A stretch of 46,980 nt of DNA, from the NCBI GenBank assembly GCA_019235885.1, contig JAFAKB010000002.1, forward strand, positions 1 to 46,980, in the 5' to 3' direction. Positions 20,827-30,465 of this stretch are shown piece by piece. The position numbers and the translations under genes are program-made. The stretch is from Candidatus Eremiobacterota bacterium. Lineage in GTDB: Bacteria > Vulcanimicrobiota > Vulcanimicrobiia > Vulcanimicrobiales > Vulcanimicrobiaceae. The notes under the pieces are model-generated. The model was not told the origin of the DNA. It did not search any database and was given only the letters and a program-made list of their open reading frames with translations. Positions within the stretch are counted from its first letter, which is position 1; every line of letters starts with the position of its first letter.

Positions 20827-22017
20827 CTATTGCATCAAGACGGCCCGGCCGCCGCCGGGGAACGAGGCGTCCGGAACGTTGGTACCGGCGCCGTTGATCA
20901 CGACGGTGTCGCCGACGATGAAGAGCCAGGAGCTGAGCGTGCCGTTGATCGTGATCTGCGAGGACGGGAAGTAGATCATCCCGGCATATCCGGTACCGCC
21001 GCTGCCGTTGACGACGAACGGGCTCGAATCGGCAGGATTCTGGTAGAACAAGACCCCCTGCGTATTGCCCGAAGACGGCGCCGTCATATTCATCGTCGAT
21101 CCGTTGATCGTGAGCTGGCCGCCGTTGTTGTATAGCGTAACCCCGCTGCCGGAGACGTTCGAGACGCCGTTCGCAGTGAGGCCGTTGTCGAAATCGTACA
21201 CGCCGGGCTCAAACACGACGTTGGTGCAGCCGTTGATGATGACATTGCTGCAATAATGGCCGGGCCACAGCGTCGCGGTCGAAAGTCCGTTGTAGAGCGT
21301 CGGCGACATGCACGCTCCCGTGGTCGGAGGGTGCGCCTTGAGGTACGCGCAGCCGGTGGTGGTCGGACACGGGTCGCTCACCGCGAGCGCGTGCGCCGGG
21401 TGCGACGAGTAGTACGTGCTTCCGTTGTCGATGTGCGTGCCTGCGTAGCCGATCATCCAGGCCGTGACGGTCGCGCCGTTGATCGTCATGTTGTTGTTGG
21501 CGATGATCCCGCAACGCGGTGCGTTGACCGTCGAACCGTTGAAGAGCACCGAGGTGCTGGTCGTGCTCAGCCCGACGATGCAATCCCGATTGTAGCTGCT
21601 CACGCCGGCCACCGCGCGCGCGCTCACCCACTGGGAGTTCAATCCGAAGATCCGGGCGAAGAAGTTCGGATGGTTCGCCCCCACGATCACCTCTACCTCG
21701 CTCGTGTTCGCGTTGTACGGCCAATTGACTTGCACGTTCACGTTGACGCCGTCGTGGGTGAACCCGTTCAGCGTCGCGTCCTGCCGCGCCGCGGCGGTGA
21801 CGACGGAGAGGCTCTGGGGTGCGAGCTCGCTCGCGCCGGCGATGGCGGCGCTGTCGGCGGCCGTCTGTTGGATTCGCTGGTTGTACCGCCAGTACCCGAC
21901 GTCGATCGCAAGCGCGGCGACGCCCAAGAGCACGACGAGCGCCAGCCCCACGATGGGGAGCACTTGTCCGCGCGATCCGTGACCGGCGACCCGCTCGACG
22001 TTCGGTGAAAGCTTCAT
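20827..22017 (-). CDS. TadG-like pilus-associated protein with Asn/Gly-rich repeats
   Basis: 396 residues from ATG 22017, which has an AAAGGGAA site about 9 nt upstream; ATG 22041 is an alternative. The N-terminus has the TadG/TadE-like segment GSRGQVLPIVGLALVVLLGV, then DVGYWRYNQRIQQTAADSAAIAGASEL, the hallmark of Flp pilus assembly TadG proteins. From about residue 170 the sequence becomes repetitive, with recurring INGS/INGA/VNGS/INGT turns alternating with short beta stretches and few charges, as in right-handed beta-helix proteins. It lacks the von Willebrand A motif of classic TadG. It is probably envelope-anchored with an exposed, adhesin-like outer part. Confidence 0.8.
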   Translation of the reverse strand: MKLSPNVERVAGHGSRGQVLPIVGLALVVLLGVAALAIDVGYWRYNQRIQQTAADSAAIAGASELAPQSLSVVTAAARQDATLNGFTHDGVNVNVQVNWPYNANTSEVEVIVGANHPNFFARIFGLNSQWVSARAVAGVSSYNRDCIVGLSTTSTSVLFNGSTVNAPRCGIIANNNMTINGATVTAWMIGYAGTHIDNGSTYYSSHPAHALAVSDPCPTTTGCAYLKAHPPTTGACMSPTLYNGLSTATLWPGHYCSNVIINGCTNVVFEPGVYDFDNGLTANGVSNVSGSGVTLYNNGGQLTINGSTMNMTAPSSGNTQGVLFYQNPADSSPFVVNGSGGTGYAGMIYFPSSQITINGTLSSWLFIVGDTVVINGAGTNVPDASFPGGGRAVLMQ

Positions 22018-22064
22018 CCGGGTTTCCCTTTCACCGATCATCGGCCGCCCACCGGGCCGCATTG

Positions 22065-22079
22065 AGTCGCGACGCGACT
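22065..22079. promoter_or_regulatory. Perfect 15-bp palindrome upstream of the TadG-like gene
   Basis: AGTCGCG-A-CGCGACT, 7-bp arms around one base, lies 48 bp upstream of the TadG start in the 131-bp gap behind the AttH-like gene. The size fits a dimeric repressor operator. No clear -10/-35 pair was found next to it, so the role is inferred. Confidence 0.3.
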
Positions 22080-22148
22080 TCCAGCCCGAAGAGCGACCGC
22101 GGTCACGCATCCGATCGCCCGCCGTCTCCTCCGGAAGGCATTCCGCCG

Positions 22149-23456
22149 TTAGAAGGGCACCGCTCTCGCATACCCCGTCAACTCGACATACCCGACGCCG
22201 ACCGCGTTGCCGCGTGTCGCATCCCGCACGTCAACCGTCCCTTCCCAATACGAAACGCCGCCGGCAAGGTCGGCGAGTTCCTGATCCTCCACTGCCGGCA
22301 CGATCACGACATCAAGTCGCGCCGATGGAACCCGCACGCGCCATCCGCTCGGATAGACGGCGTCCGTATGTGGACTCTTCCACGTCCCCGTCGCCTCGAC
22401 GACAACGTCGTCACGCCCTAAGTACCGGACCCCGCCCCGCGCATCGACGAGCGACCCGCTCGACTCCGGCGTCAGCGAGCCGTCTTTCCGCCGAAGCCGA
22501 TACAGCATGATCTCCCGGCGATCGTCGAGCTGCACCGAAAACCAATCCCAGCCAACTTGATCGTTCTGCAGCTCGTCCGACCCAAACTCATGATCCATCC
22601 AAGATATCCCGTCAACGCGCAACCTCTCGCCTTCGTACGTCAGTACGCCACGCGTCCGCAACCGCGTCATCGAATAATAATGCGAAGCGCACGTAGCACA
22701 AGACCCCTTCACCGAAGCGCCATCCCGCCCGTGCACCGCAGGCTTCTTCTCAGCCTCCTGCGTGAGATCGACGCCGATCCGGTCGCCCTGCGCCGTCAAC
22801 CGAAACGGAGCGGTCCCGTGCAGTCTCCACGTCTCAACCGCAACATCGAGCCGTTTGTCGGAAGCGCGTCCCATTCCAAGCGCTTCCCGTGCAAACCGCT
22901 CTTCGTAAACAAACCGCTGGCCACTCTCATCCGTAACCGCAAGGTGAACGGGATACACCTGATTCCCCCGCCATCGTGATTGCCCAGCCGCCGGCGGCGG
23001 ATCCCCCGGCCGCAACCCAAACCGAAAAAACGTGAGCTCATATCCAAAGCGCCGCCCGTCGCGCGTTTTGAGGTGACCGGTGTAATACCACCACTCGCTC
23101 TGAAATCCGAAATGCGCCGCATGATCTCTCGGAAACGCGAAGCGCCACGGCGTGCGAGCATTTAAAAATCCAAGAGGTGTGAGCTTCGGCAGCCTGTTGC
23201 TCGTACGGGGCAACTCCACCATCCCGCTCCCACCCCTCACCGTGTCGGTTCCGCCACGATGTTCGCCTGAGCTCTTAGGCGGGGTCGTGGCGGGCGGTGC
23301 GGCGCGCACTTCTCCGTTGCGGGGCACTACGAGGGTGAGCGAAGCCAGGATGGCGAGAGCGAACCCGAGTGTAGCGAGAGCTCGCGCAGGAAGCGCGAGC
23401 CGAGCGTGCCCCGCAGCGGAGGAGTGCACGTCGCGCCGCTGCCCCCATCCCCTCAT
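22149..23456 (-). CDS. AttH-like secreted lipocalin-fold protein (CrtC/DUF2006 type)
   Basis: 435 residues from ATG 23456, whose ATG overlaps the permease stop (ATGA). A hydrophobic signal segment (ARALATLGFALAILASLTLV) lies near residues 25-50. The mature protein has the AttH/CrtC hallmarks: FGFQSEWWYYTGHL, FGYELTFFRFGL, then ISWMDHEFGSDEL and QVGWDWFSVQLDD, and MLYRLRRKDGS. Such proteins have a double lipocalin fold and are exported partners of AttEFGH-type ABC systems; the ligand is usually hydrophobic or unknown. A Cys-Ala-Thr-Cys pair lies near 225. DNA for residues about 10-50 lies inside a palindromic element (23303-23430), so the N-terminus may be recently altered. Confidence 0.85.
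   Translation of the reverse strand: MRGWGQRRDVHSSAAGHARLALPARALATLGFALAILASLTLVVPRNGEVRAAPPATTPPKSSGEHRGGTDTVRGGSGMVELPRTSNRLPKLTPLGFLNARTPWRFAFPRDHAAHFGFQSEWWYYTGHLKTRDGRRFGYELTFFRFGLRPGDPPPAAGQSRWRGNQVYPVHLAVTDESGQRFVYEERFAREALGMGRASDKRLDVAVETWRLHGTAPFRLTAQGDRIGVDLTQEAEKKPAVHGRDGASVKGSCATCASHYYSMTRLRTRGVLTYEGERLRVDGISWMDHEFGSDELQNDQVGWDWFSVQLDDRREIMLYRLRRKDGSLTPESSGSLVDARGGVRYLGRDDVVVEATGTWKSPHTDAVYPSGWRVRVPSARLDVVIVPAVEDQELADLAGGVSYWEGTVDVRDATRGNAVGVGYVELTGYARAVPF
23303..23430. repeat. Imperfect palindromic element, copy 1 (inside the AttH-like gene)
   Basis: Outer arms 23303-23327 and 23406-23430 pair over 25 nt with three mismatches. Inside are the core GCGAAGCCAGGATGGCGAGA (from about 23339) and an 8-bp hairpin GCTCGCGC/GCGCGAGC (about 23380-23400). 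The same plan (outer arms, core with CCAGGATGGCG, inner hairpin) recurs at 41061-41210 with different arm sequences. It covers codons of the signal peptide region of the AttH-like gene. Confidence 0.6.
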
Positions 23457-26023
23457 TCCGTCCGAACGACCTCCGAAGTCCGAACCCGAGCAGCGACCCC
23501 TGCCGGGTACACCCCCGCAACGACAGCAGCAAAGATGACCAGCACGACGGTCTTCCCCAAGAACCCCCAAGGCACATGCAGCTCGATGAGCCACCCAAAC
23601 GCCTGCCGATTAATCACGAAGATCAACAGCAAAGCCAACAACATCCCGACCGCCACCCCAAGGACCCCGCCCAGCAACCCAATCCCCGCCGCCTCCACGA
23701 ACACAACCCGCCGAACCCCGCCAGCCGTCACGCCAAGATACCTCAACACCCCAAACTCCCGCCGCCGCTCCAACACCAAAGCAAACAACGTCGACACGAC
23801 CCCCAACACCGCAATCGCAATCGCAATGACATCCAACGCATACGTAATCGCAAACGTCCGGTCGAACACGTCCACCACCAGCCCCCGCAGCTCGCGATTC
23901 GTCTCCACGTCGACCCGCAACGGCACCACCGCCCGCACCACCGCCGTCCGCAGCCGGCTCAAATCCACCCCCTCCGCCGCATAGATCGCAATAGAATTGA
24001 CCGAGTCGTCCCGAAACAGCCGCCGATACGTCCCCAAATCCATTAGCACGACCCCCGCATCGGAAGAGTAGTCGTTGTACACCGCCGCCACCCGAAACGT
24101 CCGCGCCCCGGCCGGCGTCGCCAACCCGACACGATCCCCGCGCCCCACGCGGAACTTCGTCGCAAACGGCTCCGACACGAGCACGTCGTCCTCAGCCGAA
24201 AGCTGCCGCCCGAGCGCTTCGGGATCGCCGACCCCGATCAACCGCAACCGCCGCCGCGCGACGACCGTCGCTAGATTCGTCGCGACGAGGTTCGTCAACC
24301 GCCCGCCGTACGGAATCTCGATCGCGCGCAGCGTCTCGACCCGCGCCACGCCGCGCACCGCGGCGATCCGCTCCGCGACGCCGGGCGAGAACCGCGCGTC
24401 GGTCGAGGCGTCGCCGAGGCCGAGCGGCCGCACGAATAGATCGGCGCGCAACGTGTCGTCCGCCCACGCGACGATCGTCGTGCGAAACGACGCGACCAGC
24501 ACCGCGACCGAGACCATCATCCCGATCGCGATCATCAGCGAGGCGACCGCAACGGCCGTGCGCAGCGGCGCACCGGCGAGATTCGCCGCGGCCAGCGCCA
24601 CCGCCGGCCGCCGCGCCGCAAGCGCCATCCCGGCCCGCGCCAGGACGTCGACCGCGAGCGGCGCCCACAGCGAGCCGCCGAAGATGATCAGCAATCCCGC
24701 CGCATAGCCGAACACCGGAACCCCGTCGAGCGCGGGCGCGCGCGTGCACGCCCACGCCGCCGCGAGCAGCAGCACGCCGACGAGCGCGGCGCGCGGCGCG
24801 AAGCGCGGCCGGTGGCGCTCGAACCCTTGCGCGCGCATCGTGATCGCGGGCGGCGTCGCCGCCGCGCCGAACGCCGGAAACGCCGCCGCTACGACCGAGG
24901 CGAGGACGCCGAGCGCGAACGCTTTCACGAACAGCACCGGATCGTACAGCACGCGATCCGCGTGCAAGCCCACGTACAGCGTGTCGACGGTGCGCGAGAC
25001 CGCCGCGACGGAGAACCTCGCCAAGAACGCGCCGACCGCGAGCCCGAGCAGCGAGCCGAGCACGCCGACCAGCGCGCCTTCGGCGACGAACGTCCGGAAC
25101 ACCGCGCCACGCGTCGCCCCGAGCGCGCGCACCGTGCCGATCTCCGGCCGCCGCTGCACGACCGAGATGGCGACGGTGTTGTAGATCAAGTACATGCCGA
25201 CCAGCAGCGCGACCCACGCCAGCGCTTCGAGGTTCAGGCGGAAGCTCTGCAGCATTCGCGCGATCTCGCCGGTGCGCGTCTTGGGCCGAATCGCGCGCGC
25301 GCCGGGCGGGATCACCGCCGCGACCGCGCGCTCGACCGCGGGCAAGCGCGCCGGATCGGCGATCACGTCGATGCGGTCGAGCAATCCGATCTTGCCGAAG
25401 ATCTCCTGCGCCGTCGCGACGTCGACGAACACGACGCTCGAGTCGACCCCCGGCGTGCCGCGCGGAATGATCCCCGCGACGCGCAGCGCGACCTCGCGGT
25501 CCCCGGCGATCGCATGCACCGTCTCGCCGCTGCGCCAGCGCAGACGCTCGGCGAGCGCCGCGCCGGCGAACGCACCGTGCCCGTTCACCAGCACCCACGG
25601 ATCGGCGTTCTCCTGCGAGACGCTCCCCGGCGAGGCCGCCGCGCCGACCGCGCCTCCGGGGAGCGGCCGCAGCAGATCGACGCCGAGCACGCGCAGGATC
25701 TCGCCGGAAGACGGATCGCCGGGGACGGCGCCGACCGTGAGCGCGTCTTCGATCGCGGGGCTCGCAGAGCGCACGCCCGGAACGCGCAGCACGCGCACGA
25801 TCGCGCGCTCGTCGAACCCGCGTCCCGCGCCGAGCACTTGCAGGTTGACCTTGCTCGACACGATGTCGACGCTCGAAGAGAACGACGCGATCGCGGTCGC
25901 GTTGGCGAGATCGATCGCCAGCCCGATCGACACGCCGAGCGCCACCGCGACCAGCGTGACGAGCGCCCGCAGCGCGTTCGCGCGCAACGGCCCGAGCACG
26001 AGCGCCAGAAAGAGCGCGCTCAA
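23453..26023 (-). CDS. Two-domain FtsX/LolC-type ABC transporter permease (AttFG-like)
   Basis: 856 residues from a TTG at 26023 that overlaps the upstream stop (TTGA). Topology is that of fused FtsX permeases: helix 1 (about 5-30), a large periplasmic domain (30-240), three helices with EALAWVALLVGMYLIYNTVA and the cytoplasmic motif RRPEIGTVRALGATRGAVFR. A second half begins at about 470 and repeats the plan, ending with RRREFGVLRYLGVTAGGVRR and four C-terminal helices. These permeases (MacB/LolCDE class) do not import; they move lipids or peptides from the membrane or periplasm. The ATPase partner is at 28086-28742, three genes upstream. Codon use shifts to G/T-ending codons in the last third. 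Confidence 0.9.
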   Translation of the reverse strand: MSALFLALVLGPLRANALRALVTLVAVALGVSIGLAIDLANATAIASFSSSVDIVSSKVNLQVLGAGRGFDERAIVRVLRVPGVRSASPAIEDALTVGAVPGDPSSGEILRVLGVDLLRPLPGGAVGAAASPGSVSQENADPWVLVNGHGAFAGAALAERLRWRSGETVHAIAGDREVALRVAGIIPRGTPGVDSSVVFVDVATAQEIFGKIGLLDRIDVIADPARLPAVERAVAAVIPPGARAIRPKTRTGEIARMLQSFRLNLEALAWVALLVGMYLIYNTVAISVVQRRPEIGTVRALGATRGAVFRTFVAEGALVGVLGSLLGLAVGAFLARFSVAAVSRTVDTLYVGLHADRVLYDPVLFVKAFALGVLASVVAAAFPAFGAAATPPAITMRAQGFERHRPRFAPRAALVGVLLLAAAWACTRAPALDGVPVFGYAAGLLIIFGGSLWAPLAVDVLARAGMALAARRPAVALAAANLAGAPLRTAVAVASLMIAIGMMVSVAVLVASFRTTIVAWADDTLRADLFVRPLGLGDASTDARFSPGVAERIAAVRGVARVETLRAIEIPYGGRLTNLVATNLATVVARRRLRLIGVGDPEALGRQLSAEDDVLVSEPFATKFRVGRGDRVGLATPAGARTFRVAAVYNDYSSDAGVVLMDLGTYRRLFRDDSVNSIAIYAAEGVDLSRLRTAVVRAVVPLRVDVETNRELRGLVVDVFDRTFAITYALDVIAIAIAVLGVVSTLFALVLERRREFGVLRYLGVTAGGVRRVVFVEAAGIGLLGGVLGVAVGMLLALLLIFVINRQAFGWLIELHVPWGFLGKTVVLVIFAAVVAGVYPAGVAARVRTSEVVRTE

Positions 26024-26442
26024 CGCAACAGCCGCATGACGTGCAACCGTCCACCGCGGCGCAAGCGGGCGAAGAGCGTCACAACCCCGCCTTCGCGCAC
26101 GACCGCGAATGAGCGTTCCGGATCGTGCGCGCGCGCCAACCGCGCGTCGGTCCGCGCGACCGGCTCGTTCAGCGAGCACGCAAAGGCGATCGCCTCGTCG
26201 CGATACTTCTGCGGACCGACACCGCCGCGCGGGCGCGCGAAGGCGCGGTACCGAGCGTCGAACGCCGCCCGGCCGAGCTGCGCGCAGGTGCGCGGCAACA
26301 GCGCGCGAGCTGCTGCGGCGCGCTTGCGCAGCGCGATCTCGGCCAGCCGCGTCACGCCGTCGCGCGAGACTCCCGGTACGTCGATCGGCACGTCGTCTCC
26401 CGCGACGACGGCACGCGCCAACGCACGCTGATAGTCGATCAT
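26020..26442 (-). CDS. MNIO partner protein (DUF2063/BufC-like N-domain), putative
   Basis: 140 residues from the ATG at 26442 (ATGA overlap with the DUF692 gene; its own stop overlaps the permease start). It has no signal or membrane helix. The segment IALRKRAAAARALLPRTCAQLGRAAFDARYRAFARP resembles the DUF2063 pattern (Arg-x-x-x-x, Leu-Pro-x-x-x-x-Leu-Gly-x-x-x-Phe). The rest (VVTLFARLRRGGRLHVMRLLR) is beta-rich and unlike the usual C-domain. DUF2063 proteins bind the leader of the precursor and partner DUF692 enzymes (TglI, BufC, MbnC). The gene position strongly suggests this role; the sequence match itself is weak, so treat the name as inference. Confidence 0.55.
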   Translation of the reverse strand: MIDYQRALARAVVAGDDVPIDVPGVSRDGVTRLAEIALRKRAAAARALLPRTCAQLGRAAFDARYRAFARPRGGVGPQKYRDEAIAFACSLNEPVARTDARLARAHDPERSFAVVREGGVVTLFARLRRGGRLHVMRLLR

Positions 26443-27320
26443 GCTGCCGCCACGTGCTGCGTCGATCCTGCCGCCGAAGCCGCACTGATAACCGTGCGGG
26501 CAACCGCGCGCGCGGCATCGAGCTCGCCCAGCAGCACGTCGAACGGCGGGAGCGCGGCTTCGCGCTCGATCAGCGTCAGCGGCAAAACGCACCGCCGGCA
26601 CAGCGCCTCGTACAGCCGCCACGTCGCGTCGGGAACCGGTCCGTCGTGCGAGTCGAGATACTCGCCGAGGACGCGCCGCCCGCCCGCGAGGTGCACCTCG
26701 ACGACGCGCTCGACCGGGACCGCTGCGATTAGCGCCTCGGCGTCGGTTCCCAGGTTCCAGCCGTCGGCGTGCAGATTCTCGACGTCGAGCACCAGCCCGC
26801 AGTCGGCCGCGTCGGCAACCGCGCGCAGAAACGCACCCGGCGCAAGCTGCGCTCCCGCGACCGCGAACGGCGCCGCCGGGTTCTCCAAGGCGAACGGCGC
26901 GTCCACGACGGCGCGAACGCGCGCGGCGTTGCGCGCCACGACTTCGACCGCTTCATACGTATGCGGCAGCGGTGCGAATGCGCCCAGCTCCACCGTGCCG
27001 ACGCGGGTGAAGGCGAGATGATCGCTCCACCAGCGCGGGCGCACGAACGCGACCAGCCGCGCGATGCGCTCGAGATAGCGTTCGTCGACGCCGTCCGCGC
27101 TGCCGATCGAGGTTCCGAGCGCGTGCACCGTGATCGGAAAGTGCGCGCGCAGCAGCTCGAGCTCGTCGCGCTGCTCCGCCGTCAAGTCCAGAAAATGTTC
27201 GGCGACGATCTCCAGCGCTTCGACGAGCGGCCGCGCCCTGAACAGTGCCGCGCGGTGTTCCACGCGATACAGCAAACCAAATGCCGGGCCGGTCATGCGC
27301 AGTACCTCGGGTTCGATCAT
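26439..27320 (-). CDS. DUF692 family multinuclear non-haem iron oxidase (MNIO)
   Basis: 293 residues, TIM-barrel, the length of MbnB/TglH/BufB-type enzymes. Family motifs in order: GLLYRVEHRAALF (15-27), ITVHALGTSIGS with His66, WWSDHLAFTRVG with Asp100-His101, ALENPAAPF with Glu146, LVLDVENLHADGWNL (177-190), VVEVHLAGG with His210, YLDSHDGPVPD with Asp223/His225, and LIERE with Glu252. These are the His/Asp/Glu positions that bind two or three irons in the family. Known members oxidise Cys or neighbouring residues in peptides. It overlaps both the TIGR04222-type gene (ATGA) and the partner gene (ATGA). The substrate is probably the Cys-rich tail of the preceding gene product (inference). An ATG at 27296 is a later alternative start. 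Confidence 0.88.
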   Translation of the reverse strand: MIEPEVLRMTGPAFGLLYRVEHRAALFRARPLVEALEIVAEHFLDLTAEQRDELELLRAHFPITVHALGTSIGSADGVDERYLERIARLVAFVRPRWWSDHLAFTRVGTVELGAFAPLPHTYEAVEVVARNAARVRAVVDAPFALENPAAPFAVAGAQLAPGAFLRAVADAADCGLVLDVENLHADGWNLGTDAEALIAAVPVERVVEVHLAGGRRVLGEYLDSHDGPVPDATWRLYEALCRRCVLPLTLIEREAALPPFDVLLGELDAARAVARTVISAASAAGSTQHVAAA

Positions 27321-27991
27321 CCGCCGCACCCGCCGCCGCCGCAACCGCCGCCGCTGCAGCTGCCGCCGCCACCGCTGCACCCGCCGTGACCGCCGCCGCC
27401 GTCGCCGTGACCGCCACCGCCGTGACCACCGTGACCGCCGCCGTCCTCGACCAACGTCGCGCCGCAACCACCGCCGTCGGAACCTGCGCTCGTCGCCGCG
27501 GCGACGGTCGCTGCGTGATACCGCGTTCCGTCGAGCGCGCGCGGACCGTGCAGCGCGAGCGCGAGCGCCGGGTCGAGCGCAACGATCTGCGCCGCCGGGT
27601 AGGCGAGCTGCGCGCTGCGCATCCATGCCTTACCGCGCGCCGTCTGCCGTCCCGTGAGCCAATTGAACGGCGACGATTCGCGCAGCAAGCCGGCCGCCAC
27701 CAATCGCCGCTCGAGGTCGCGCCGCACCTCTTGCGAGTGGTCCCGAACGCTGCGTCGCGCCGCCGACCAGGTGGGCGAGTTCGCCGCCGCGCCGATCAGC
27801 GCGACGGTGATGGGATCAGTTGAGACCGGTCCGGCTTGTGCGGGATCGAAGATCCGCAGCTTGCGGCCTTCGAGCGCCAGCGCGCCGGACTCGACCGCGC
27901 GCACGATCGCGACGTCGAGCGCCGTATCGAATCCCTTGCGAACGAACGCGACCTCGATCGGATCGATCGAGGCCGAAAGCGTGTGCTCCAT
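27317..27991 (-). CDS. TIGR04222-type protein with a Gly/Cys/His-rich tail, candidate modified-peptide precursor
   Basis: 224 residues from ATG 27991, with an excellent site GGAGGAA 4-5 nt upstream. Residues 1-165 match the TIGR04222 plan: IDPIEVAFVRKGFDTALDVA, ALEGRKLRI, then DLERRLVAAGLLRESSP and ALDPALALALHGPRAL. The family members I know are membrane proteins; no convincing helix is seen here. Residues 168-224 are almost only Gly, Cys, His, Ser and Asp: four His at 187-202 in GGGH-type repeats, and Cys at 176, 205, 212, 217 and 222. The protein has no Cys elsewhere, so all five lie in the tail. The stop overlaps the DUF692 gene (ATGA). It is the probable substrate of that enzyme, but this is untested. 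Confidence 0.8.
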   Translation of the reverse strand: MEHTLSASIDPIEVAFVRKGFDTALDVAIVRAVESGALALEGRKLRIFDPAQAGPVSTDPITVALIGAAANSPTWSAARRSVRDHSQEVRRDLERRLVAAGLLRESSPFNWLTGRQTARGKAWMRSAQLAYPAAQIVALDPALALALHGPRALDGTRYHAATVAAATSAGSDGGGCGATLVEDGGGHGGHGGGGHGDGGGGHGGCSGGGGSCSGGGCGGGGCGG

Positions 27992-28047
27992 TGGTTCCTC
28001 CGACTGCACCGTTCCGCAATCGCTTCATACTCATGGTTTACGTTTCC

Positions 28048-28085: not shown

Positions 28086-28742
28086 TCAGACGATCCGCCC
28101 GTCGCGCAGGGGGACGACGCGGTCGGAGAGTGCGGCGGCGTCCTCGCTGTGGGTCGCCACCAGCACGGCCTGCCCGCCGTCGGCGAGGGCGCGCAGCAGC
28201 GCGAGCACCGTCGCGCCGGTCTGCGAGTCGAGGTTTCCGGTCGGCTCGTCGGCGAGCAGGATCGCGGGCCGGTGCACGACGGCGCGCGCGATCGCGACGC
28301 GCTGCATCTGCCCGCCCGAGAGCTGCGCCGGATACGCGCGCGCCTTCTCCGCCAAACCGACGCTCGCGAGGGCCGCGCCGACGCGCGCTTCGATCTCCTG
28401 GCGCGGGACGCGCTGCAGCACGAGCGGCAGCGCGACGTTGTCGGCGACCCGCATCGCCGGCAGCAGGTTGAAGAACTGAAAGACCGTGCCGACGCGGTCG
28501 CGGCGCAGCAGCGTGAGCCGGTCGTCGTCGAGCTCGTGCGTCGCGCGGCCGTCGACGTAGACGGTGCCGCTGGTCGGCAGGTCGACGCATCCGACGAGGT
28601 TGAGCAGCGTCGACTTCCCGCAGCCGCTCGGCCCGACCAGCGCGACCATCTCGCCGCGCGCGACGTTCAGCGAGACGCCGTCGAGCGCGCGCACGGCGTC
28701 CTCGCCTGCGCCGTACGTCTTCGACACCTCGCGCACGAGCAC
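28086..28742 (-). CDS. LolD/MacB-type ABC transporter ATP-binding protein
   Basis: 218 residues from the GTG at 28742. Walker A GPSGCGKST, Q-loop region VFQFFNLLP, signature LSGGQMQRVAIARAVVH, Walker B ILLADEPTGNLDS and the H-loop VATHSED are all intact; SKTYGAGEDAVRALDG and the GTVFQFFNLLPAM segment mark the LolD/MacB class. It should energise the FtsX-type permease at 23453-26023. An alternative CTG start at 28766 would create the CTGA overlap pattern of this operon. It has a good site (GAGGAG) about 5 nt before it, whereas the GTG has none. Confidence 0.93.
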   Translation of the reverse strand: MLVREVSKTYGAGEDAVRALDGVSLNVARGEMVALVGPSGCGKSTLLNLVGCVDLPTSGTVYVDGRATHELDDDRLTLLRRDRVGTVFQFFNLLPAMRVADNVALPLVLQRVPRQEIEARVGAALASVGLAEKARAYPAQLSGGQMQRVAIARAVVHRPAILLADEPTGNLDSQTGATVLALLRALADGGQAVLVATHSEDAAALSDRVVPLRDGRIV

Positions 28743-28762
28743 CGGATTGGGCTCGTGCGCGC

Positions 28763-30022
28763 TCAGCGCTGCTCCTCGCCGGCGGCGCGAAAGACGAGCG
28801 CGGCGTTGATCCCGCCGAACCCCGCCGAGTTCGAGAGCACCGTGCGCACCGGGCGCTCGAGCCGTTCGCGCGTGACGGCGAGATTGCAGTCGGCGGGCTC
28901 GCTGTTGACGCTGCGCGGCACGACGCCGTTCGCGATCGCCGCCAGCGAGAGCGCCGCTTCCCACGCGCCGGTCGCGCCCAGCGCGTGCCCGTGCTGGCCT
29001 TTGGTCGCGGTGACCGGAACGCGCGCCGCGCGCTCGCCGAAGACGAGCTCCAGCGCGTGCGCCTCGGCCTTGTCCCCGGCCGGCGTCGCGCTGCCGTGCG
29101 CGTTCACCACGTCGACGTCGGCGGCGGCAACGCCCGCTTCGTCGAGCGCGCGCTGCATCGCGGCGGCGTTCATCGTCGCGTCGGGGCGCGGCGCCGACAT
29201 GTGGTGCGCGTCGTTCGTCAGCCCGTAGCCGGCGATCTCGCCGTAGATTCGCGCGCCGCGCGCCCGTGCGTCGTCGAGCCGCTCCAGCAGCAGCACGCCC
29301 GCGCCTTCCGCCATCACGAAACCGTCGCGCGCGCGGTCGAACGGGCGGCTCGCGTTCGCCGGATCGTCGTTGCGCGTCGACATCGCCTTGATGATCGTGA
29401 ACGCACCGTACACGAGCGGTGAGAGCGGCGCCTCGACCCCGCCGGCGAGCGCGGCGCGCGCGTCGCCGCGCGCGACCGCCCGAAACGCATCGCCGATCGC
29501 CACCGCGCCGGAGGCGCACGAGTTTCCGTTCGCGACCGTCGGCCCGCGCAAGTCGAACTCGATCGCGACGTTGCACGTCGCCGCGCCGCCGAAGACCGAG
29601 ATCGCCAGCAGCGGCTTCACCGCGTCGAGCCCGCGCCGGCGGAAGACGTCGTGCTGCTCGTCGGCGAACGCGAGCCCGCCGAGCGCCGAGCCGAGATAGA
29701 CGCCGACCTCGCTCGAATCGCCGTTCGGCCGGTATCCCGCGTCGTCCAGCGCGAGCCGCGACGCGGCGATCGAGAATTGCGAGAAGCGGTCGGTCCAGTG
29801 CAGCCGCTTGCCCGCGACGAAGTCGCGCGGCTCGAAGTCGTCGATCTGCGCCGCGATGCGCGAGCGGTAGCCGGCCGTTTCGAAGCGCGAGATCGGCGCG
29901 ATCGCGACGCGCTCGGAGAGCACGCCGTTCCAGAACTCGGCAAGCCCGATCCCGAGCGGGGTCACCACGCCGATCCCGGTCACGACGACGCGGTGGTGCG
30001 CGCCGTTCGCGCGGCCGTTCAC
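28763..30022 (-). CDS. FabF-type beta-ketoacyl-ACP synthase
   Basis: 419 residues from the GTG at 30022 (GTGA overlap with the SRPBCC gene). Thiolase fold with the complete active site: Cys169 in NGNSCASGAVAIG, His309 in NAHGSATPAGDKAE, Lys341 and His346 in TKGQHGHALGATG. Also RVVVTGIGVVTPLG at the N-terminus and SNSAGFGGINAALVF at the C-terminus. The active-site surroundings (NSC rather than TAC; HGSATPAGD rather than HGTSTPLND) differ from housekeeping FabF, so it probably makes a special product. No chain-length factor, acyl carrier protein or ketoreductase lies next to it in the window. Confidence 0.9.
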   Translation of the reverse strand: MNGRANGAHHRVVVTGIGVVTPLGIGLAEFWNGVLSERVAIAPISRFETAGYRSRIAAQIDDFEPRDFVAGKRLHWTDRFSQFSIAASRLALDDAGYRPNGDSSEVGVYLGSALGGLAFADEQHDVFRRRGLDAVKPLLAISVFGGAATCNVAIEFDLRGPTVANGNSCASGAVAIGDAFRAVARGDARAALAGGVEAPLSPLVYGAFTIIKAMSTRNDDPANASRPFDRARDGFVMAEGAGVLLLERLDDARARGARIYGEIAGYGLTNDAHHMSAPRPDATMNAAAMQRALDEAGVAAADVDVVNAHGSATPAGDKAEAHALELVFGERAARVPVTATKGQHGHALGATGAWEAALSLAAIANGVVPRSVNSEPADCNLAVTRERLERPVRTVLSNSAGFGGINAALVFRAAGEEQR

Positions 30023-30465
30023 GCGCGCGCCTCGGCGAGCGTCTTCATCCGCGCCAGCGTCTGCGCGGCGACGCCGTGGATGAAGTAGTCGCTCACCACG
30101 TGCCGGCCGAGCCACTCGGCGGCGAAGGGAAACGCGAACCGCAGGCGGTGCTCGATCGTCACCCGCGTTCCGCCGGCGAAGCGCTCGAAGAGCCACTCGA
30201 CGTCCATCCCGCGCGTCCAGCCGCGGACGTGCTTGAACGCGATGTGCGGCCCGGCCGGATCGTTCGTCTGCTCCGCGACCCAGCGCACCGGAAAGACGTC
30301 GCGCCACGCGCTCATCGCGACCAGCCGCGTCGGCCCGTTCTCCGCCAGCACGCGCACGTAGCGGTAATGCGGCAGTATCTGCGGCCAGCGCTCGGTCGCG
30401 GACGCAAGCGCGTACACTTTTTCCGCCGGCGCGGCGATCTCGAGGGTATTCCGAGTGACGGTCAC
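30019..30465 (-). CDS. SRPBCC (START-like, polyketide cyclase/aromatase-type) protein
   Basis: 148 residues, a typical size for a single SRPBCC domain. Opens with VTRNTLEIAAPAEKVYALASATERWPQILPHYRYVRVL, the usual first strand, helix and WPxxLPHY motif of polyketide cyclases. Then VRWVAEQTNDPAGPHIAFKHVRGWTRGMDVEW and the closing long helix ADYFIHGV-like region. It binds a hydrophobic ligand and may cyclise or aromatise the product of the adjacent ketosynthase. The GTG start at 30465 overlaps the stop of a 19-codon ORF; no SD is visible, but a hairpin lies 11 nt before it. Confidence 0.85.
   Translation of the reverse strand: MTVTRNTLEIAAPAEKVYALASATERWPQILPHYRYVRVLAENGPTRLVAMSAWRDVFPVRWVAEQTNDPAGPHIAFKHVRGWTRGMDVEWLFERFAGGTRVTIEHRLRFAFPFAAEWLGRHVVSDYFIHGVAAQTLARMKTLAEARA

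Follow-up and report, generated by a model that had tools for sequence, protein, structure and literature searches.

Gene cassette and host operon

The window, i.e. the whole stretch of 46,980 nucleotides that was analysed, comes from a soil-dwelling member of the candidate phylum Eremiobacterota (Vulcanimicrobiota). It contains a cassette of three genes, coding for a precursor, an MNIO and a short partner protein, which is located in a conserved ABC operon, with the ATPase gene on one side and the FtsX-type permease gene on the other. The features are as follows:

20827-22110, reverse strand: Tad-type (TadE/G-like) protein beside the ABC operon
22149-23192, reverse strand: CrtC/AttH-type lipocalin protein, final gene of the conserved ABC operon (provisional start)
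23453-26023, reverse strand: FtsX-type ABC permease (provisional start), elsewhere usually right after the ATPase when the cassette is absent
26020-26442, reverse strand: short partner of 140 aa, DUF2063-related (PME-type-2-like), its start overlapping the MNIO stop (ATGA)
26439-27320, reverse strand: MNIO (DUF692, PF05114), 293 aa
27317-27991, reverse strand: precursor, 224 aa, with a TM-less TIGR04222-type leader domain and a Cys/His/Gly tail
27320-27490 (27317-27490 including the stop codon), reverse strand: tail, residues 168-224 (57 residues), disordered
27491-27991, reverse strand: folded leader/recognition domain, residues 1-167, Cys-free (profile, alignment, AlphaFold2)
27653-27682, reverse strand: hairpin junction, residues ~104-113, where relatives carry a TM2-TM3 hairpin of ~50-60 residues (alignment)
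28086-28760, reverse strand: ABC transporter ATPase, FtsE/MacB/LolD type (provisional start)
28808-30022, reverse strand: ketosynthase (KS), conserved upstream neighbour in two genera
30019-30465, reverse strand: SRPBCC cyclase-like protein, conserved upstream neighbour in two genera

The precursor starts at the ATG at 27991, or is 230 residues long if the upstream GTG at 28009 serves as start. Its open frame tops out at 235 residues, at most five beyond the GTG form, so that no overlooked N-terminal helix fits upstream; the protein carries no signal peptide. Its stop codon (27317-27319) overlaps the MNIO start (ATGA, 27317-27320). A first-pass annotation of this DNA had described a Gly-dominated tail of 57 residues with five Cys and four His, an N-terminal part free of Cys and the lack of a clear membrane helix, and these descriptions were confirmed. 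The tail (SAGSDGGGCGATLVEDGGGHGGHGGGGHGDGGGGHGGCSGGGGSCSGGGCGGGGCGG) contains 34 Gly besides the five Cys (positions 176, 205, 212, 217 and 222) and four His (positions 187, 190, 195 and 202), residues 1-167 are devoid of Cys, and hydropathy over 19 residues peaks at 1.52, as compared to 2.06-2.70 in ten relatives. When all 54,741 open windows of 57 residues were considered in the six frames of the whole window, three displayed at least five Cys and at least 25 Gly; they overlap each other and all correspond to the precursor tail itself. The tail Gly codons are mixed (20 GGC, 11 GGT, two GGG and one GGA), and hence do not indicate a fresh DNA repeat. None of 20,000 base shuffles of the tail yielded at least 34 Gly and no stop.

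The link to DUF692 enzymes made in the first-pass annotation also proved sound since a genuine MNIO gene adjoins the precursor, with an ATGA overlap, a PF05114 match (E 4.1e-71) and nine iron ligands. These ligands (H66, H101, E146, D179, N182, H210, D223, H225 and E252), mapped with the set defined on TglH (PMC10880893), are invariant across seven Eremiobacterota MNIOs. The nearest curated model is that of the bufferin maturase BufB (equivalog NF050167), for which the enzyme scored 208.2 bits, under the cut-off of 310. The partner protein has no Pfam match of its own; DUF2063 was matched by two of its five aligned relatives (best 1.6e-4). Short PME-type-2 proteins have been described beside TIGR04222 genes (PMC12452194), and the 140-residue partner, judged by its sequence, would fit this description. 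A second, distant MNIO (~30% identity) was recorded elsewhere in the window genome (G000:C11:53868-54713, L044:5809-6735). Next to it come a protein weakly matching NGO1945_C (RRE-like) and a frame with a radical-SAM-like Cys motif, and an SCO1-like frame lies nearby; this locus is probably another RiPP cluster.

The gene order SRPBCC-KS-ATPase-precursor-MNIO-partner-permease-CrtC was identical in the window, in the congener G006 and in G017, which belongs to another genus. The G017 partner was recognised by alignment, and the G017 precursor is a regular TM-bearing TIGR04222 protein matched by the curated model. Among 30 permease loci fetched, the cassette was present in three (window genome, G006 and G017), whereas the ATPase directly preceded the permease, with no cassette, in 23; the remaining loci were three cut or differing ones and G032, a special case. 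In this third genus, the same operon slot was occupied by a TIGR04222 gene devoid of a Cys tail, with an MntP-type manganese-efflux gene after it (L102:4780-6034; PF02659 E 5e-30), and the genome gave no match to the window's MNIO. Cys tail and MNIO seem to have been lost together in the G032 lineage. The closest MNIO (79%) was found in G003, where the cassette does not adjoin the permease; the contig ends inside the tail (GDGSGSCSSSGCSSGCGGGCGGG), the leader being outside the visible sequence. With cassette-free permease loci on one side and cassettes located elsewhere on the other, the cassette is thus a module able to sit in or outside the ABC operon.

The view of ABC transporter and cassette as one functional unit was weakened, as most permease loci are cassette-free and some cassettes occur elsewhere. 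As to taxonomy, contig JANYGA010000243.1 (L146) is titled Rhodospirillales; its MNIO falls inside the Eremiobacterota MNIOs and it displays the same operon. It appears to be the G017 contig, from the window's own family, and its title is probably wrong.

Relationship of the leader domain to TIGR04222 proteins

The label "TIGR04222-type" used in the first-pass annotation was borne out by homology (lineage profile and alignment) but not by the curated NCBIfam TIGR04222 model, which gave no match to the precursor, nor to anything in the window's own genome at E 0.001. The same model matched 38 of the 39 other aligned family proteins at E<=1, as well as same-phylum proteins, several of which are encoded directly upstream of MNIO genes. 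It was replaced by a lineage profile built from ten same-phylum TIGR04222 proteins with tails removed. With this profile, the leader of the window protein scored 35.6 bits (E 3.7e-10, 1002 sequences searched) and the two congener fragments 17.6 and 16.8 bits; of 999 shuffled leaders, the best reached 11.3 bits. A genome-scale profile search, with the window protein among the seeds, gave E 8.9e-26 and 5.4e-11.

The match was composed of two blocks (residues 8-110 and 115-162) separated at the very site of the relatives' TM2-TM3 hairpin. Likewise, TM1 of the relatives is absent from the precursor in the alignment. The core motif DPxExAxxRxG ... RG ... AxALxGxxALxGT is present. TIGR04222 proteins are integral membrane proteins with a C-terminal Gly/Ser-rich tail in which Cys are interspersed; the precursor displays such a tail, but its lack of any segment above 1.52 in hydropathy sets it apart from membrane proteins. 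Profile and alignment have shown that the leader domain and the soluble part of TIGR04222 proteins are homologous. The tail has been kept, and TM1 and the TM2-TM3 hairpin have apparently been lost. DUF2207_C (PF20990) matched 31 of the 40 aligned family proteins at E<=0.1, the window precursor itself giving no DUF2207_C match. The window leader also displayed a weak resemblance to GPP34 (PF05719; E 0.0055, below the gathering score).

AlphaFold2, run on the precursor with a 40-row alignment, predicted most of residues 11-160 at pLDDT >90 and a disordered tail. Its model of the TM-bearing G017 relative showed the same succession of helices and strands, to which three helices are added: an N-terminal one, and a pair located after the helix that ends at 126 and before the one that starts at 194. 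As modelled, the hairpin would thus interrupt a compact soluble domain whose fold would stay whole without it. Foldseek comparison of the precursor model with the PDB found nothing below E 4.7, and PDB sequences searched with a profile of the leader alignment gave no significant match. With both searches devoid of matches, no structural relative of the leader is claimed.

Tail patterns, distribution and selection

A precursor-based scan of 84,980 named genomes for close relatives returned nothing, and the MNIO alignment was used as query instead. This second scan yielded 58 loci, from Eremiobacterota, Cyanobacteria, Planctomycetes, Acidobacteria, Verrucomicrobia, Armatimonadetes, Alphaproteobacteria and others. 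TIGR04222-type proteins encoded before these MNIOs displayed two or more strongly hydrophobic segments, or a recognisable hairpin. Among ~46 TIGR04222-type precursors beside related MNIOs, only those of the window and G006 were TM-less with several tail His. In the G006 assembly, which has the locus on a single contig (L034:5012-5768), the gene is distributed over more than one reading frame, due to either sequencing error or decay, and the window precursor is the only intact TM-less example seen. A profile search in 148 genomes of the phylum revealed no further TM-less case. Weak matches in three same-family genomes were unconfirmed by this search and were set aside, as were the other weak matches (E 0.002-0.007) that it gave instead. 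A distinct arrangement was observed in the Opitutia bacterium JABJCN010000015.1 (L159:4701-5136), where two very short frames preceding the MNIO display one membrane helix and a Gly/Cys tail, with no TIGR04222 domain, and form a mirror image of the window precursor.

The last 57 residues of 37 homologous tails contained 4-11 Cys, and 181 of the 213 consecutive Cys gaps measured 3-6 residues. Gaps of 1-2 residues were observed three times, as compared to ~66 in shuffles, and a C-(G/S)n-C-GG motif was found at the end of 36 of the 37 tails. His residues were rare (none in 29 tails, a single one in eight), against four in the window and three in G006, the one congener with its whole tail visible. 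The Cys gaps of the window tail (29, 7, 5 and 5) are unlike those of the family, only the terminal motif being retained. The first-pass annotation had proposed that conserved Cys and His spacing among homologues would support a function, and tails of random length and spacing would refute it. Our results were divided: Cys gaps are non-random and their pattern constrained, but the tails differ in length and in number of Cys, those outside the genus have next to no His, and Cys and His show no fixed geometry. The idea of a metal site with conserved Cys and His was rejected for His (0 or 1 elsewhere) and partly kept for Cys. Taken at the level of tail sequences, the Cys pattern of the family is apparently constrained, as expected for separate, repeated modification sites.

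In a 40-row MNIO tree, the enzymes of the window, G003 and G006 grouped as a clade (100/100), with the G017 MNIO as its sister (99/91). This clade lies within the Eremiobacterota MNIOs, nested among those that adjoin TM-bearing TIGR04222 proteins. Helix loss is the simplest reading because the surrounding relatives all have TM-bearing precursors. The stem of the clade is long (1.02 changes per column), and such a stem on the helix-losing lineage suggests that the enzyme adapted to a changed substrate. Pairwise dN/dS values were ~0.17-0.31 for the MNIO (window, G003 and G006), ~0.34 for the tail (window versus G006), 0.22 for the permease, 0.57 for the C-terminal half of the leader and ~0.43 for the partner. 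These ratios indicate that the MNIO is under purifying selection, the enzyme being kept and the leader drifting.

Topology, function and known systems

Positive charges (K+R) around the TMs were counted in 31 TM-bearing relatives. Their mean number was 0.29 before TM1 and 2.0 after it, 2.3 before TM2, 1.1 in the short loop of the hairpin, and 4.3 over the 15 residues that follow TM3. In 31 of 31 relatives, the count after TM3 exceeded that of the loop. The positive-inside rule would place both the domain and the stretch following TM3 in the cytosol. The hairpin brings the chain back to the same side, and the parts flanking it form one fold. The natural helix-less, signal-less version is most simply cytosolic as well. 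Domain and tail of this TIGR04222 subfamily therefore very likely face the cytosol, which argues against the published suggestion that both are periplasmic (PMC12452194). In some TM-bearing relatives, a fourth hydrophobic segment before the tail could carry the latter across the membrane; in the window precursor, the pre-tail stretch is polar (ALALALHGPRALDGTRY). Since domain, tail and enzyme have persisted without the helices, the latter are predicted to be dispensable for modification.

It appears fairly probable that the precursor is a cytosolic, TM-less, TIGR04222-type MNIO substrate whose tail Cys are oxidised, probably to a form that binds copper. The leader domain would act as a large leader by which the precursor docks, in the cytosol, on the complex of MNIO and partner. 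The MNIO would then oxidise several tail Cys, most likely to 5-thiooxazoles by analogy with bufferins, oxazolin and captophorins. Once modified, the tail may act as a soluble buffer in the cytosol by binding a soft metal, with copper as the most likely one, and its unusual His may serve as added metal ligands. The metal and the chemistry, both assigned by analogy, are the weakest steps of this scheme. Several points stand against the explanation, namely an MNIO below the BufB cut-off, the off-family Cys spacing of the window tail, His that are not conserved beyond the genus, the frame-break in the sole other TM-less copy and the published periplasmic view. A bolder reading is possible and is put forward tentatively: deletion of all membrane helices from a TIGR04222 precursor in an Eremiobacterota lineage, with enzyme, partner and tail retained and fast change of the MNIO on the same branch, might represent a natural topology experiment, in which modification would be cytosolic and membrane-independent and the product a soluble, intracellular, His-assisted, metal-binding protein. 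No description of such a protein as an MNIO product was found in the literature.

Alternatively, the modified tail could be a secreted product, cut from the soluble leader and exported by the ABC transporter of the host operon. This is unlikely, even though three genomes from two genera have the cassette between their ATPase and permease genes, a tail-less TIGR04222 gene occupies the same slot in a third genus and the soluble leader domain resembles what a cleaved leader would be. The ABC operon is cassette-free in 23 of 30 permease loci and the cassette occurs elsewhere in other genomes, so that neither needs the other; moreover, FtsX-type permeases with CrtC/AttH partners usually handle periplasmic or lipid substrates, and neither a peptidase gene nor a cleavage motif was seen. 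We give a similarly low probability to binding of Zn, Ni or Cu via unmodified Cys and His, as in Gly/His-rich metal proteins of the cytosol, the MNIO having another substrate or modifying one Cys only. His enrichment (4 in 57) confined to the two TM-less proteins is in its favour, and the tail-less TIGR04222 gene of G032, which adjoins an MntP gene and not an MNIO, hints at a metal theme. However, the precursor and MNIO genes share an ATGA overlap, the Cys tail is retained in TIGR04222-type precursors encoded next to related MNIOs, and it is gone in the one relative without MNIO (G032), so that tail and enzyme seem to go together.

Decay of the cassette in this genus, with helix loss, congener frame-breaks and the long MNIO stem all reflecting relaxed selection, was judged quite improbable. 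The MNIO is indeed missing from eight of ten other same-genus genomes, the congener precursor is frame-broken, the MNIO stem is long (1.02 changes per column), and the leader and the partner show higher rates (dN/dS ~0.4-0.6). Yet, dN/dS of the MNIO (0.17-0.31) is similar to that of the permease (0.22) and amounts to 0.34 for the tail, all iron ligands are kept, the Cys tail is visible in the window, G003 and G006, and the AlphaFold2 model of the leader is well folded. That the tail, very GC-rich, Gly-rich and predicted to be disordered, is a meaningless low-complexity extension is hardly credible: its Gly codons are mixed, nothing else in the six reading frames of the window resembles it, several phyla have homologous tails whose Cys gaps are non-random, and comparison with the congener points to purifying selection on it.

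The preferred reading, a cytosolic MNIO substrate with oxidised tail Cys, can be compared with known systems. Bufferins, oxazolin and captophorins are Sec-dependent Cys peptides, and BufB/HvfB-type MNIOs make 5-thiooxazoles. The window system shares with them multiple tail Cys and an MNIO whose best curated match is the bufferin maturase. It differs from bufferins by the absence of a signal peptide, by a large folded leader and by a Gly/His spacer replacing the bufferin motifs, and from bufferin systems by a short partner in place of the full DUF2063-RRE protein. Proteins of the SlyD/HypB type display Gly/His-rich cytosolic metal-binding tails. Here too, a disordered His/Cys/Gly tail is attached to a folded cytosolic domain, but the window tail is linked to an oxidative RiPP enzyme and the leader domain is not known to be akin to those of SlyD or HypB.

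TIGR04222 proteins represent ~40% of the >1,000 signal-less Cys-containing proteins encoded before MNIO genes and, being membrane proteins, are awkward to study (Antoine et al. 2025, PMC12452194). The window precursor appears to be a small natural soluble version, with enzyme and short partner in one compact cassette. Of the uncharacterised groups of putative signal-less MNIO substrates, TIGR04222 proteins form the largest, and the precursor gives a soluble entry point to it, amenable to direct expression and analysis. It would also show which TIGR04222 parts are dispensable, and it bears on topology. With the TIGR04222 membrane proteins beside MNIOs, it shares the homologous soluble domain, a Gly/Cys tail ending in CGG, a gene directly 5' of the MNIO, the absence of a signal peptide and, possibly, a short partner of PME-type-2 kind. 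In contrast to these relatives, which have two or more TMs, it displays neither TM helices nor a match to the curated model, and its tail has four His and fewer, wider-spaced Cys. TIGR04222 proteins beside MNIOs were already known, and the window precursor is a real and well-supported variant of them without membrane helices.
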